Assembly (NCBI GenBank): GCA_010692635.1
Contig: JAAHGL010000025.1
Span: 1 to 64,000, forward strand
DNA length: 64,000 nt
Reading direction: 5' to 3'
Source: Symploca sp. SIO2C1
GTDB lineage: Bacteria > Cyanobacteriota > Cyanobacteriia > Cyanobacteriales > Coleofasciculaceae
Shown: in pieces, positions 25,978-62,993 of the stretch
Layout: each line of letters opens with the position of its first letter
Numbering within the stretch: position 1 is the first letter of the stretch
Position numbers and translations under genes: made by a program
The notes under the pieces: model-generated
What the model saw: the letters and a program-made list of their open reading frames with translations, nothing else
What the model was told of the DNA's origin: nothing
Database searches by the model: none

Positions 25978-26583
25978 ATGAATAATTCTCGTCTAATTAA
26001 AATTAGTAAATATCTCAGCAAGCATCTGCGGCATCAGCCTGAGCGGATTGGCATCAAACTTGCTCCTGGTGGCTGGGTTAGTATTGATGAACTTCTGAGG
26101 GCGTGTAAAAAGCACTCTTTTGAGATCAATCGGACTGAATTGGAGGAAGTAGTTGCCAACAATGACAAGAAACGCTTTTCTTTTGATTCAACAGGCACTC
26201 TAATTCGTGCTAACCAAGGACATAGTGTTGAAGTTGATTTGCAGCTAGAACCGGTTATTCCGCCAAAGGTGCTCTACCACGGTACAGGACATCGAGCAGT
26301 TGAAGTAATTTTGCAACAAGGTTTGCGTAAGATGTCACGGCATCATGTTCATCTATCCAGTGAAATGATAACAGCTCGCAAAGTGGGGGCACGGCATGGT
26401 CGTCCAGTAATCTTGATTGTAGATGCAGCAGGAATGCAAAATGACGGTTATACCTTTTACTGTTCCGATAATGGGGTGTGGCTAGTGGATAATGTTCCAC
26501 CAAAATATCTTCAGCAAACTGAAATAGGAGGCAGGAGGCAGGAGGCAGGAGGCAGGAGGCAGGAGGCAGGAGGTAGGAGGTAG
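25978..26583 (+). CDS. kptA: RNA 2'-phosphotransferase (Tpt1/KptA)
   Basis: This 201-residue enzyme transfers the 2'-phosphate of RNA splice junctions to NAD+. The family is essential for tRNA splicing in fungi, and its bacterial role is unclear. The N-terminal winged-helix part has the motif [22 protein letters not shown] (Arg-His pair) and GWVSIDELL. The catalytic ADP-ribosyl-transferase-like part has [27 protein letters not shown] and [12 protein letters not shown], with the conserved Arg/His residues present. The natural C-terminus seems to be near [10 protein letters not shown]. The last 18 or so residues (GGRRQEA repeats) come from a heptamer array that extends the frame. It may share a transcript with the AAA+ gene downstream. 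Confidence 0.9.
26528..26582. repeat. Heptanucleotide array (GGAGGCA)n at the 3' end of kptA
   Basis: About eight copies of GGAGGCA/GGAGGTA form the last codons of kptA, giving the heptapeptide period GGRRQEA. The stop codon TAG at 26581-26583 lies at the array edge. Confidence 0.85.
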
Positions 26584-26627: not shown

Positions 26628-26747
26628 TATAGCAGTTCTCGCATCTGTGAGGTACAGATCCAATTCCCAATTCCCAATTCCCAATTCCCAATTCCCAATT
26701 CCCAAAAACCAGGCTCTTTGTACCTCATCTAAATGAGAAACGCTCTA
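26628..26747 (+). mobile_element. Hairpin leader element, copy 1 (upstream of AAA+ gene)
   Basis: This 120-bp element begins TATAGCAGTTCTCGCAT and ends ATGAGAAACGCTCTA, imperfect terminal inverted repeats. Inside are GAGGTACAGATCC and a matching CTTTGTACCTC, which extend the stem. The loop is an array of five to six CCCAATT heptamers plus AAAAACCA. It lies 11 nt before the ATG of the AAA+ gene. Two further copies (41460-41565, 62253-62359) have the same orientation relative to a downstream start. Confidence 0.75.
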
Positions 26748-26758
26748 TCTTATCAATT

Positions 26759-27964
26759 ATGAGTTCAGGATACTTTCGTAACCAGAATAATAATTCAGCT
26801 AGTAATCAGCAAGGTCGAGGTTTACTAGGAGCTGGTTGGCGGCCGTTTACTCGACAATTAGATTGGGACTTTTTATGGCATTTAGTTACAAATGACACCT
26901 GGGAGCTAACTCAAAAAACTCTTGATTTTGCTAGTGATTTGGGAGATGTTCTAGGACGCCGTGATTACGCCTGGTGGGCAAATATCTTAAGTGTGTTTTC
27001 AGAAAACACACGCTATGAATTAGACGAATTTTGGGACTATATTACTCCTAAAAATCCCGCGCCGAATTATCTTGATCGCAAAGTTTTGATGGTTGATACT
27101 CCTGTAAAGAGACTAGTCAGTCGCGATAGTATTCCTATTGATTATGTACTCAACCGCTTGCAGGAGATAACTGTTTTTAAGATTCTTGATTTATTAGGTA
27201 AGCCAGAACTAATTACCCAGGAATACGATGACCGCAATTTTTATTTGCCTATCCATCGGTTTGTGAATTGGGAGCGGTTGGAAGTCATGGGTACTGTTTT
27301 TGCCTATTGGCCTGAGCAGGAAGTTTGGCTACAAATAGATACTCTTAATGAAGGACGGCGAAAGTACAGTCTAATTGCTAAAGAATTAGATTCACTAGTG
27401 AATAAAGCTACTTACGGTTTGGCTGTGATGCTCAGTGGTTATCAAAGCCGTGTAGGACAGATTCATAGTCAGTTTCCTATTCGGACATTTCCTAATGATA
27501 TTCAAAGCTTTACTGACGCTGTACAGCAAGCAGTTTTTGACCAAAATCGGCTGGCTGTACTGGTAAGTGGTGAACCTGGAACCGGTAAAACTGCTTGGAC
27601 ACAAGCCGTAGCGAAGGAAATTATGGCTCCTTTAGGGTATGTAATTTTTATCCTAGATCATGATGGGGTTGAAAATTTTGTACCACCTAGTTACTTAGAG
27701 CGGATTTGTTTGATTATTAATGAAGCTGACAATTTAGCTCAAGATAGAGCTAGTTTAGTGGCTCAAGGCAATAGCAAAACCGAACATATTCTGAGTTTGT
27801 TAGATGGCACTTTATATCAGAGTGTAATTGATGAGGCAGGAATTCAAATGCAACAGAAGTTAGTTGTCTTGATGACTTGCAATACAACCGCAAGATTAGA
27901 CCCGGCAGTTTTACGTCAAGGGCGGGTTGATTTGAGCTATGAATTTACTCAGCGATTTGTTTAA
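26759..27964 (+). CDS. AAA+ ATPase, cyanobacterial type
   Basis: The 401-residue protein has a family-specific N-terminal region (1-240; WRPFTRQLDWDFLWHLVTND and DYAWWANILSVFSENTRYEL) and a C-terminal AAA module. The module has Walker A LVSGEPGTGKTAWTQA at about 270-285, Walker B ICLIINEADNLAQD at about 316-329, sensor-1 Asn in VLMTCNTTARLD (about 372) and an Arg-finger-like RLDPAVLRQGRVD. The small C-terminal lid is short. The target is unknown. Such proteins are probably remodelling ATPases. The start ATG at 26759 lies 11 nt after hairpin element copy 1, which therefore forms its 5' leader if transcription starts upstream. Confidence 0.8.
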   Translation: MSSGYFRNQNNNSASNQQGRGLLGAGWRPFTRQLDWDFLWHLVTNDTWELTQKTLDFASDLGDVLGRRDYAWWANILSVFSENTRYELDEFWDYITPKNPAPNYLDRKVLMVDTPVKRLVSRDSIPIDYVLNRLQEITVFKILDLLGKPELITQEYDDRNFYLPIHRFVNWERLEVMGTVFAYWPEQEVWLQIDTLNEGRRKYSLIAKELDSLVNKATYGLAVMLSGYQSRVGQIHSQFPIRTFPNDIQSFTDAVQQAVFDQNRLAVLVSGEPGTGKTAWTQAVAKEIMAPLGYVIFILDHDGVENFVPPSYLERICLIINEADNLAQDRASLVAQGNSKTEHILSLLDGTLYQSVIDEAGIQMQQKLVVLMTCNTTARLDPAVLRQGRVDLSYEFTQRFV

Positions 27965-40799: not shown

Positions 40800-41453
40800 A
40801 TGCTAGTTCCCATCACCCGCCAGAAGTTTGAACAACTGATTCCTTTCATTGCCACTGCTCCCCAGTATCGTTATTACTGGGGCAAATTCCCAGATTTGTT
40901 AAAACGACTCCTGATTTCTGTCTCGGGAATTATCGTCGTTTGGTTATTATCATTAGTTTTCGGTCAGGATTTCAATGGACTACGTTTGTTACTCTGGATC
41001 ATTACTGGGTTTTATTGGCTGTGGAGCCCTGTATACTGGGCAAGTGTCCGCAATTCTAAGGTACGTCGATACCAATACAGTGGCTTCTGGCGTGGTCGAG
41101 TCAAGGATGTATTTGTGACAGAAGAGTTGATTGGCAAAGAGGAAACAGTTAATGAGCGTGGTCAGTTAGTTATTGTAGAAAATAGGGAGCGACGCTTTAA
41201 TCTAGAGGTAGTTGACAAAACGGGATTTAGTACCCTACTACAAGCACCACTGCGCCGTACTCATCAAGGAATTGCTCCTGGTCAAATTGCTGAGATGTTG
41301 ATAATGTCTAATAAATCTGACCTATCACGGATTACTCAGACTAGTGATATCTATATTCCTCGTCTGAATCGTTGGGTGAGTGATTATCCTTACCTACAAA
41401 GAGATGTCTTTGTCCAGGTTAGCCAACAGTTGAGAAAACAGAAAAAGAGATAA
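40800..41453 (+). CDS. Conserved cyanobacterial membrane protein
   Basis: This 217-residue protein has two predicted membrane segments near the N-terminus (LLKRLLISVSGIIVVWLLSL at about 35-54 and LRLLLWIITGFYWLWSPVYW at about 60-80), followed by a soluble beta-rich domain (YSGFWRGRVKDVFVTEELIG, RRFNLEVVDKTGFSTLLQAP) and a basic end. Homologues in cyanobacteria are often labelled as phosphate ABC permeases, but nothing here supports a permease. Function unknown. The gene is followed at 7 bp by hairpin leader element copy 2 and then tex. Confidence 0.7.
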   Translation: MLVPITRQKFEQLIPFIATAPQYRYYWGKFPDLLKRLLISVSGIIVVWLLSLVFGQDFNGLRLLLWIITGFYWLWSPVYWASVRNSKVRRYQYSGFWRGRVKDVFVTEELIGKEETVNERGQLVIVENRERRFNLEVVDKTGFSTLLQAPLRRTHQGIAPGQIAEMLIMSNKSDLSRITQTSDIYIPRLNRWVSDYPYLQRDVFVQVSQQLRKQKKR

Positions 41454-41459
41454 GCTACA

Positions 41460-41565
41460 TATAGCAGTTCTCGCATCTGTGAGGTACAGATCCGATTCCC
41501 TATTCCCCATTCCCCATTCCCAAAAACCAGGATCTTTGTACCTCATCTAAATGAGAAACGCTATA
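41460..41565 (+). mobile_element. Hairpin leader element, copy 2 (upstream of tex)
   Basis: This 106-bp element has TATAGCAGTTCTCGCAT at the left, ATGAGAAACGCTATA at the right, and inner GAGGTACAGATCC paired with GGATCTTTGTACCTC. It is the best-paired of the three copies. The loop carries three to four CCCATTCC/CCCTATT heptamers. The right end is 26 nt before the ATG of tex. Confidence 0.8.
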
Positions 41566-41591
41566 GAAGAAGTCTATTGTAAAAACTGCCA

Positions 41592-43751
41592 ATGCTCAAT
41601 ATCCCTCAACTACTAGCACAAGAGCTTTCCCTCAATCCCTCTCAAGTAGAAAATGCTCTTTCTCTGCTGGCTGAGGGGGCAACTATTCCCTTCATTGCTC
41701 GTTACCGTAAAGAGCGTACTGGCTCCCTAGACGAAGTTCAGCTGCGTAACCTTTCGGAGCGATTTACTTACCTGACGGAGCTAGAAGAAAGGAAAGCGGT
41801 AATTTTAGAAGCGATCGCTGCTCAGGATAAACTGACTGATGAGCTAGCAGCAAAAATCCAAGCTTGCCTACAAAAAACGGAACTAGAGGATCTATACCTC
41901 CCCTACAAACCCAAGCGGCGTACTAGAGCCACTATTGCTAGGGAAAAAGGCTTGGAACCATTGGCAGAGTTGATTAACTCCCTCAATGATCCTACAACAA
42001 CCCCCATATCCTTAGAACAAGCAGCAGCAAAGTATCTTTCCGAGGAAAAGGGAGTTAAGACAATAGAAGAAGCGCTCAAGGGAGCATCGGATATTCTGGC
42101 AGAAGCGGTATCTGAGAAAGCCGAATTGCGTGCCGACTTGCGAGATTACTTGATGGTAGAAGGGGGTTTTACCTCCCAAGTCAAGAAGGATTATCCCGAA
42201 GGTACAACCAAATTTGAGATGTATCGGGACTTTAAAATCCCAGTTCCCAAAATTGCCCCCCATAATCTACTAGCACTCCTGCGAGGGGAAGCTGAGGGAG
42301 TGTTGAACTTGGAACTCTCCTTCGATGAAGATGTGGTAATGTCTGATCTAGAGTCCCAGGAAATCCATACCAAACAGCCTGAGATCCGAAACTTTTACCG
42401 GGGAATGCTCAAGGATGCCTTCAACCGTTTGATGAAAAATTCCCTAACTACGGAAGTCCGCTCTGATAGAAAAGGCTATGCAGATGTAGAGTCAATTAAA
42501 ACCTTTGAAGCCAATCTCCGAGAGTTGCTCCTATCTCCCCCCGCAGGCATGAAACCAACCTTAGCACTTGATCCCGGTTTCCGCACTGGTTGTAAAGTAG
42601 CAGTTCTAGATCAAACAGGACAATTTTTAGAATACCAAGCTGTGTTCCCCCACCAAGCTGCTGCACAGCGCCAACAAGCGGCTGATACTATCAAGAGTCT
42701 GATTCAGAAATATCAGATTGAACTCATCGCCATTGGTAACGGTACAGCTTCCCGTGAGACAGATGAATTTATTGGAGAAGTACTCAAAACTGTCGATAGT
42801 AAACCAATTAAGGTAATAGTAAATGAGTCAGGCGCATCAATTTACTCAGCTAGTGAAGTAGCACGAGAAGAGTTCCCTGATTTAGATTTAACAGTAAGGG
42901 GAGCAATTAGTATTGGCAGGCGCTTGCAAGATCCTTTAGCTGAGCTAGTGAAAATTGACCCTAAATCCATTGGTGTGGGACAGTATCAACACGATGTAGA
43001 TCAGAAGTTGCTCAAGAAGAAGCTAGATGAAACAGTAGAAAGCTGTGTCAACTATGTAGGTGTGGATTTAAACACTGCTTCCAAAGAACTCCTCACTTTT
43101 GTCTCCGGTATTACCCCAACAGTTGCCAAAAATATCGTCACCTACCGTAACCAAGAAGGAGCCTTCACCAACCGCCGCAAACTTCTCAAAGTACCGAAAC
43201 TAGGGCCAAAAGCTTTTGAGCAGGCAGCTGGTTTTTTAAGAATTCGCAATGGAGATAACCCCCTGGACAATACAGCAGTGCATCCAGAGAGTTATGCTGT
43301 AGTAAAAGCGATCGCTAAAGATTTAAATCTGCCCCTAGCTCAACTCGCTCAAGCAGCAGATAAACTCAAATCCATATCACTACAAAAATACGTCACTGAT
43401 ACTATCGGTTTACCTACCCTCCAAGATATTATCAGCGAGTTGGAAAAGCCAGGAAGAGACCCCAGAGCGGAATTTAAATATGCCACCTTTAAAGAAGGGG
43501 TTAAAGAAATCACCGATCTTTCTCCTGGGATGGAACTAGAAGGCATTGTAACCAATGTTGTCAACTTCGGAGCCTTTGTAGATATCGGCGTACATCAAGA
43601 TGGGTTAGTACATATTTCCCAAATATCCAACAGCTTTGTAGATGATCCTAAGAAGTTTGTTACTGTGGGACAGGTAGTAAGAGTACAGGTACTGGAAGTC
43701 AATGAGAAATTAAAACGTATCAGCCTATCAATGCGAGCAGTAAACAACTAG
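41592..43751 (+). CDS. tex: Tex-family S1 RNA-binding protein
   Basis: This 719-residue transcription accessory protein binds nucleic acid. Its domains in order are the N-terminal Tex helical region (IPFIARYRKERTGSLDEVQL at about 33), a YqgF/RuvX-like domain (LALDPGFRTGCKVAVLDQTG at about 320), helix-hairpin-helix repeats (DLNTASKELLTFVSGI, FTNRRKLLKVPKLGPKAFEQ) and a C-terminal S1 domain (GMELEGIVTNVVNFGAFVDI at about 640, then DGLVHISQIS). Length and order are standard. Its 5' leader contains hairpin element copy 2. Confidence 0.95.
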   Translation: MLNIPQLLAQELSLNPSQVENALSLLAEGATIPFIARYRKERTGSLDEVQLRNLSERFTYLTELEERKAVILEAIAAQDKLTDELAAKIQACLQKTELEDLYLPYKPKRRTRATIAREKGLEPLAELINSLNDPTTTPISLEQAAAKYLSEEKGVKTIEEALKGASDILAEAVSEKAELRADLRDYLMVEGGFTSQVKKDYPEGTTKFEMYRDFKIPVPKIAPHNLLALLRGEAEGVLNLELSFDEDVVMSDLESQEIHTKQPEIRNFYRGMLKDAFNRLMKNSLTTEVRSDRKGYADVESIKTFEANLRELLLSPPAGMKPTLALDPGFRTGCKVAVLDQTGQFLEYQAVFPHQAAAQRQQAADTIKSLIQKYQIELIAIGNGTASRETDEFIGEVLKTVDSKPIKVIVNESGASIYSASEVAREEFPDLDLTVRGAISIGRRLQDPLAELVKIDPKSIGVGQYQHDVDQKLLKKKLDETVESCVNYVGVDLNTASKELLTFVSGITPTVAKNIVTYRNQEGAFTNRRKLLKVPKLGPKAFEQAAGFLRIRNGDNPLDNTAVHPESYAVVKAIAKDLNLPLAQLAQAADKLKSISLQKYVTDTIGLPTLQDIISELEKPGRDPRAEFKYATFKEGVKEITDLSPGMELEGIVTNVVNFGAFVDIGVHQDGLVHISQISNSFVDDPKKFVTVGQVVRVQVLEVNEKLKRISLSMRAVNN

Positions 43752-62252: not shown

Positions 62253-62359
62253 TATAGCAATTCTCGCATCCATGAGGTACATCTCCTATTCCCTATTCCC
62301 TATTCCCCATTCCCAAAAAACAATAACTAATGTACCTCACAAGTATGAGAAACGCTATA
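62253..62359 (+). mobile_element. Hairpin leader element, copy 3
   Basis: This 107-bp element has TATAGCAATTCTCGCATC at the left and GTATGAGAAACGCTATA at the right, inner GAGGTAC and GTACCTC, and a loop with CCCTATT/CCCCATT heptamers. The stem beyond GAGGTAC is less well paired than in copies 1 and 2. It ends 37 nt before ATG 62397. Confidence 0.75.
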
Positions 62360-62396: not shown

Positions 62397-62993
62397 ATGG
62401 CTTACAGTGACTTTACCTTAGACAGAGTGAAGAAAGAATTTGGTTTAACTCTTTCTGATAAAGTTGATATTTTTGCCGATGTACCAGAATATAAATGTAG
62501 TGAATCACTAGCAGAAATTTTGCGAGAAAATCTGCCTTTAGCTCTTGCTAGTAATACCGAAAAATCTCGCTCTGAAATGATTATTGCCCCAATTTTAATC
62601 GAACTTCGGAAACAATTACAGCATCAGATAAGTTTATTCTCTGGTATAGAGTTTAATATTGATTCTGCTAAAGGCTTGAATGGGAGCTGTGATTTTATCA
62701 TTAGTCGTTCATCAGAACTACTACTTATTACTGCGCCAGTGATTGCAATTGTGGAAGCCAAAAAGGAAAATATTAATGCTGGATTAGGACAGTGCATAGC
62801 TGAGATGGTGGCATCTCAGCTCTTTAATGAACGGGAAGAGAATAAAATTGAAACTATTTATGGAGTAGTAACTACCGGGACAAACTGGAGATTTTTGAAA
62901 CTAGAAGGACAAGTGATAAGTATTGATTTGAGTGAGTATTATATTAATAATGTCAATAAAATTTTGGGTATTTTAGCAAGTGGAATTCAGTAA
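62397..62993 (+). CDS. PD-(D/E)XK nuclease-like protein of unknown role
   Basis: This 198-residue protein is found in cyanobacteria. A possible nuclease centre is visible: Glu in [18 protein letters not shown] (about 60), Asp in [10 protein letters not shown] (about 99) and the [20 protein letters not shown] motif (E-x-K, about 120), followed by [20 protein letters not shown]. This pattern is that of restriction-endonuclease-like folds and of type I restriction-like N-terminal domains. No modification gene is adjacent. A defence role is possible but not shown. Its leader contains hairpin element copy 3. Confidence 0.7.

Follow-up and report, generated by a model that had tools for sequence, protein, structure and literature searches.

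Three copies of a hairpin-forming element lie in the 64,000-nt stretch of DNA analysed here (the window), all in the same polarity and each just upstream of an ORF. Do they control the genes that follow, or are they a mobile element that the window happens to show in one of its less common positions? The earlier note on this DNA allowed for both a MITE and a cis-regulator with a contingency-type variable loop. The genome-wide picture gives an answer: the element is not a dedicated leader switch, and it is commoner after stop codons than before start codons. Each copy is very probably a non-autonomous transposon of the IS630/Tc1 type, a MITE, whose interior is a heptamer array. Mobile elements of this kind are known, but the variant is new; the part that stays unexplained is its polarity towards genes.

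Re-reading the window recovers 3/3 hairpin copies at the coordinates and in the polarity that had been given, and the claimed distance of 11–37 nt to the next ATG ORF is measured as 11, 26 and 37 nt. Copy 1 (26628–26747, + strand; 120 nt, six heptamer units) lies 11 nt 5′ of an AAA ATPase ORF that starts at 26759, its left end 44 nt past a KptA-family ORF; copy 2 (41460–41565, + strand; 106 nt) lies 6 nt past the stop of ORF 40800–41453 and 26 nt 5′ of tex, which starts at 41592; copy 3 (62253–62359, + strand; 107 nt), of a subfamily with a CAAGTATGAGAAACGCTATA end, lies 37 nt 5′ of the ORF at 62397. The genes 3′ of copies 1 and 2 are thus an AAA ATPase gene and tex; the gene 3′ of copy 3, which had been called nuclease-like, has no match in a Pfam search. 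The ends are conserved as described, except that the right end of copy 1, ATGAGAAACGCTCTA, carries one mismatch. In copy 2, end alignment delimits a left terminal inverted repeat (41460–41488, + strand), TATAGCAGTTCTC-N7-TGAGGTACA, common to IS630 transposons, and a right one (41537–41565, − strand), TATAGCGTTTCTC-N7-TGAGGTACA; between them the sequence contains the (ATTCCCN)n heptamer array that forms the loop (41491–41521, + strand). A GGAGGCA array at 26527–26583 reaches into the 3′-terminal part of the KptA-family ORF (25978–26583), an example of a non-MITE heptamer array with an ORF directly 5′ of it as read on the G-bearing strand; the syntenic place in a related genome, G001, lacks this array. 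In neither G001 nor a second relative, G002, does the gene left of copy 2 adjoin tex, and copy 2, within the interval 41453–41592, is therefore at or near a gene-order breakpoint.

What kind of element has such ends? The terminal inverted repeat is 29 nt long, with the consensus TAYAGCNNTTCTCN6RTGAGGTACA, and the copies end in TA; their identity as IS630-type MITEs follows because IS630 transposons in related cyanobacteria carry the same terminal repeat. When six MITE ends and eight IS ends are aligned, T1, A2, A4, G5, C6, T9, T10 and G22–T26 are invariant, and the two classes have TAYAGC..TT and (T)GAGGTACA in common. The same ends surround different interiors in 15 of 29 related genomes. A plasmid search returned three weak matches, one of which falls at the border of a gene annotated as IS630 transposase in an Oscillatoria nigro-viridis plasmid (L194), and a PF13358 search in relatives returned more IS630 copies with the same ends, L186 among them; L170 is another IS630 with this terminal repeat. 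The DDE_3 domain is confirmed in L186 and L194; the same-genus copy at L186 993–2027 has MITE-type ends (DDE_3 E 4e-30). Its transposase (L186 1028–2010) is spread across two overlapping frames; some IS630 genes are read with a frameshift across frames, which resembles this split. A phage search for the element gave no match. In the own genome, a single IS630 DDE_3 fragment, which has no MITE-type ends, and no intact partner were found; we infer the active transposase from relatives for this reason. The odd ends L018 and L054, considered as hiding places of an autonomous copy, hold ordinary ORFs only.

How far has the element spread, and by what route? Pattern searches for both ends gave many pairs in G000, the own genome (8.17 Mb, 470 contigs). 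The genome-wide covariance search that had been proposed, run with a model (R1) built from 14 copies, finds at least 142 matches at E ≤ 0.01, the three window copies included, and at least 93 near-full-length copies (matches spanning the whole model); both counts are lower bounds, with 150 candidates scored. The element thus recurs far beyond chance. Copies are dispersed and ~92–148 nt long, with no transposase gene within; among the 93, the length modulo 7 is 1 in 73 and 2 in 14, and the element therefore changes in length by whole heptamers. Another large subfamily has the ends TACAGC...GCTGTA, and three copies identical across 106 nt suggest recent spread. Nearly all copies have TA at both ends, and at least three lie within TATCAAT or AATTGATA heptamer arrays; the terminal TA is a target duplication, because joining the flanks through one TA restores the interrupted repeat. 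The IS630 element ISY100 likewise targets TA, which is duplicated on insertion (PMC2170065). In G000 and G001, ~70–74% of copies have a T directly after the right TA, and the left side avoids G: the target preference is asymmetric around the insertion. Same-genus relatives lack all three window insertions at the matching positions: (i) the KptA and AAA genes adjoin in G001 as in the window, without copy 1; (ii) tex in G001 lacks copy 2; and (iii) the G002 homologue of the gene downstream of copy 3 lacks copy 3. Comparison of the own genome with the copies fetched from G001 and G002 found no orthologous copy in common, and one pair shares an intergenic region at different points. Terminal repeats, target duplication, copy number and empty sites together bear out the MITE half of the earlier reading.

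If the element is a transposon, why does it fold so well? On the + strand the three window copies fold far better than shuffled sequences (z −4.4, −7.0 and −6.5), as expected because their ends are near-palindromic; the predicted stem has ~23–27 interrupted pairs, fewer than the 35 or so once envisaged. Strong hairpins, a unit number that differs between copies and the uniform polarity and position of all three window copies, 11–37 nt 5′ of an ATG, are what would speak for a dedicated cis-regulatory leader RNA whose contingency-type loop controls translation of the downstream gene. This reading is highly improbable. Rfam has no match in the window, and stem pairs are not compensated within subfamilies. 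The 22 model pairs contain 50 double-change cells, 35 of which are a single subfamily switch (T-A to C-G at position 3 of the terminal repeat), 13 one G-U/U-A switch and two single changes; pair 14-251 is broken in 46/82 copies. Base-pair covariation, a check suggested at the outset, thus amounts to switches between subfamilies, with none at the level of copies, a pattern that fits symmetric transposase sites, not an RNA stem kept by selection. With neither an Rfam match nor copy-level covariation, a leader-RNA family was rejected. The absence of the insertions from same-genus relatives likewise means that the element is not conserved upstream of orthologues; the contingency loop is not supported, with unit number seen to vary between copies but at no single locus and 0/3 insertions conserved upstream of a gene. 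Nor do the window copies appear to carry a promoter or terminator, an idea rejected on the scan results: copies 1 and 2 show no promoter-like site, copy 3 is surrounded by four weak promoter-like matches against 1.2 expected by chance, and no terminator-like site occurs at any of the three.

Where, then, do the other copies lie? Each was oriented as in the window, with 40 nt as the proximity cut-off. With genes called by our own simple codon model (stop codons reliable, starts less so), the right end in the own genome points towards a co-oriented gene 48 times and towards a converging gene 42 times; it is close to 9/48 co-oriented starts and 31/42 converging stops, and the left end to 10/51 stops and 2/31 starts. 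In G001 the corresponding fractions are 9/29 and 18/23 on the right, 7/20 and 3/26 on the left. Intergenic TA sites, the control, lie within 40 nt in ~11% of cases on all sides. In the pooled set of 163 copies (G000, G001 and 15 of G002), the stop side is close in 52/70 converging arrangements on the right versus 19/81 in the mirror arrangement (Fisher 3e-10), and the start side in 21/86 versus 7/61 (p = 0.057). The commonest close position in the own genome is reversed, just past a stop codon (31/93). Copies placed as leaders (≤40 nt 5′ of a co-oriented start) make up 21/163 of the pooled set and 9/93 in the own genome, where intergenic TA sites would predict 5.7% (p = 0.08); distances to the co-oriented gene in the own genome range from about 0 to >1500 nt. 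So small a class and so loose a position count against a leader RNA, a proposal that had rested on three copies. One result does favour it: start-proximal copies lean towards the window polarity, 21 versus 7 in the pooled set (binomial p = 0.013), and this lean, which could also come from a leader effect, tells against regarding the copies as MITEs and nothing else. Placement, which the earlier note proposed to tabulate, is not random; it is strongly polarised, but not as leaders would be. The leader reading is a small-sample effect atop a real, wider, unexplained polarity of heptamer-bearing DNA.

Does this polarity belong to the transposon or to the repeat that it carries? Heptamer arrays without MITE ends, in loci taken around MITEs and with the C-rich strand as +, are close on their right side to 50/90 converging stops and 30/80 co-oriented starts, and on their left to 6/78 stops and 6/72 starts: at starts and stops alike, the ORF lies 5′ of the array as read on the G-bearing strand. 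Arrays whose units have exactly one C and no G give 17/27 and 6/21 on the right versus 1/16 and 2/22 on the left; such units cannot form quadruplexes yet keep the polarity. In heptamer-free relatives of the element (G004, G011), a small set from other genomes, close placement is seen in 1/6. Among arrays in the G000 and G001 loci, 204 have period 7, none 5 or 6, 13 period 8 and 17 period 9. Because MITE-free arrays show it too, the polarity most likely has its source in the heptamers, whether by insertion, growth or retention, rather than in a leader function. The same polarity is known from Xanthomonas and Nostoc, where G-rich heptamers lie nearer the 5′ neighbouring ORF whatever its orientation and in general show no link to mobile elements (Rehm et al., 2015; PMC4692102).

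Two explanations of this placement, both compatible with MITE identity, have to be weighed. The mobile element may have been recruited as a 3′ trailer, its G-rich loop ending transcription or protecting mRNA while selection retains the orientation. The excess of right ends just past converging stops (52/70 against 19/81), its replication in G001 (18/23) and the transcription reported for most G-rich repeats of Xanthomonas (Rehm et al., 2015; PMC4692102) argue for such a trailer. However, the same rule applies before start codons, with the G strand antisense, and in one-C arrays unable to form quadruplexes, and the three window copies have no terminator-like site; we regard recruitment as a trailer as rather unlikely. 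Alternatively, a directional process at the DNA level may set or grow heptamer DNA at ORF boundaries with the G strand outward, whatever the gene direction. One rule would then fit starts and stops, MITEs and unrelated arrays, as well as the indifference of repeats to ORF orientation (Rehm et al., 2015; PMC4692102). Against it stand the lack of a known mechanism, the intact right ends of the MITEs, which leave no room for deletion up to the element as a cause, and a target-site matrix that does not predict the polarity; we hold it tentatively, at somewhat less than an even chance. Two simpler causes were rejected: target-site preference (a matrix from gene-distant copies puts 11% of stop-facing sites close, the same as unweighted) and local base skew beside genes (of the right sign, too weak at +0.11 and −0.06). 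That all heptamer DNA in these cyanobacteria, mobile or not and with or without the capacity to form G-quadruplexes, follows one directional rule, with the adjoining ORF 5′ of it on the G-bearing strand both before starts and after stops, is a doubtful generalization; if true, it would imply an undescribed DNA-level process of insertion or growth, for which the MITE is a defined reporter.

How might the copies have arisen? In the scheme that we prefer, a transposase related to those of IS630, supplied in trans, would have bound both ends, and this binding, not RNA pairing, would keep TATAGC and GAGGTAC. The “stem” would be what results from transcribing two inverted ends, the internal array would have gained or lost units through slippage or unequal recombination, and leader copies would be one outcome of intergenic insertion. 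This removes a false riboregulator lead, and the link between IS630-type ends and a hairpin repeat that is frequent in cyanobacteria allows copies of this repeat to be annotated correctly; the origin of cyanobacterial heptamer arrays becomes testable.

How does the element compare with known systems? ISY100 of Synechocystis is the studied cyanobacterial IS630. IS630/Tc1-mariner elements and their MITEs are alike in inverted ends, in TA as target and duplication and in a multi-copy non-coding derivative; here, by contrast, the interior is a variable heptamer array and the own genome has no intact partner. YPAL and ERIC of enterobacteria, intergenic hairpin-forming miniature elements, are similar by description, and YPAL elements also lie close to stop codons. 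Very small mobile repeats in cyanobacteria, reportedly the subject of work by Elhai and colleagues in 2008, may be related elements. Anabaena sp. 90, a related cyanobacterium, has 147 complete or partial MITEs, likened to ours by description: they have terminal inverted repeats, are mostly intergenic and reportedly belong to type II, with no matching IS (PMC3542288). The BrickBuilt MITE of Porphyromonas gingivalis is likewise intergenic with an internal tandem-repeat array; its units are 23 nt and it lies 49–591 nt from genes (PMC4596501), whereas here the units are 7 nt and the element is often 0–22 nt from a stop codon. Closest in content are the heptamers of Rehm et al. (PMC4692102), with the same unit type and the same polarity relative to ORFs; here a MITE carries the array, and units without G runs keep the polarity. 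The placement bias already described for G-rich heptamers thus extends to a mobile element and to repeats lacking such runs, which argues against G-quadruplexes as its sole cause.
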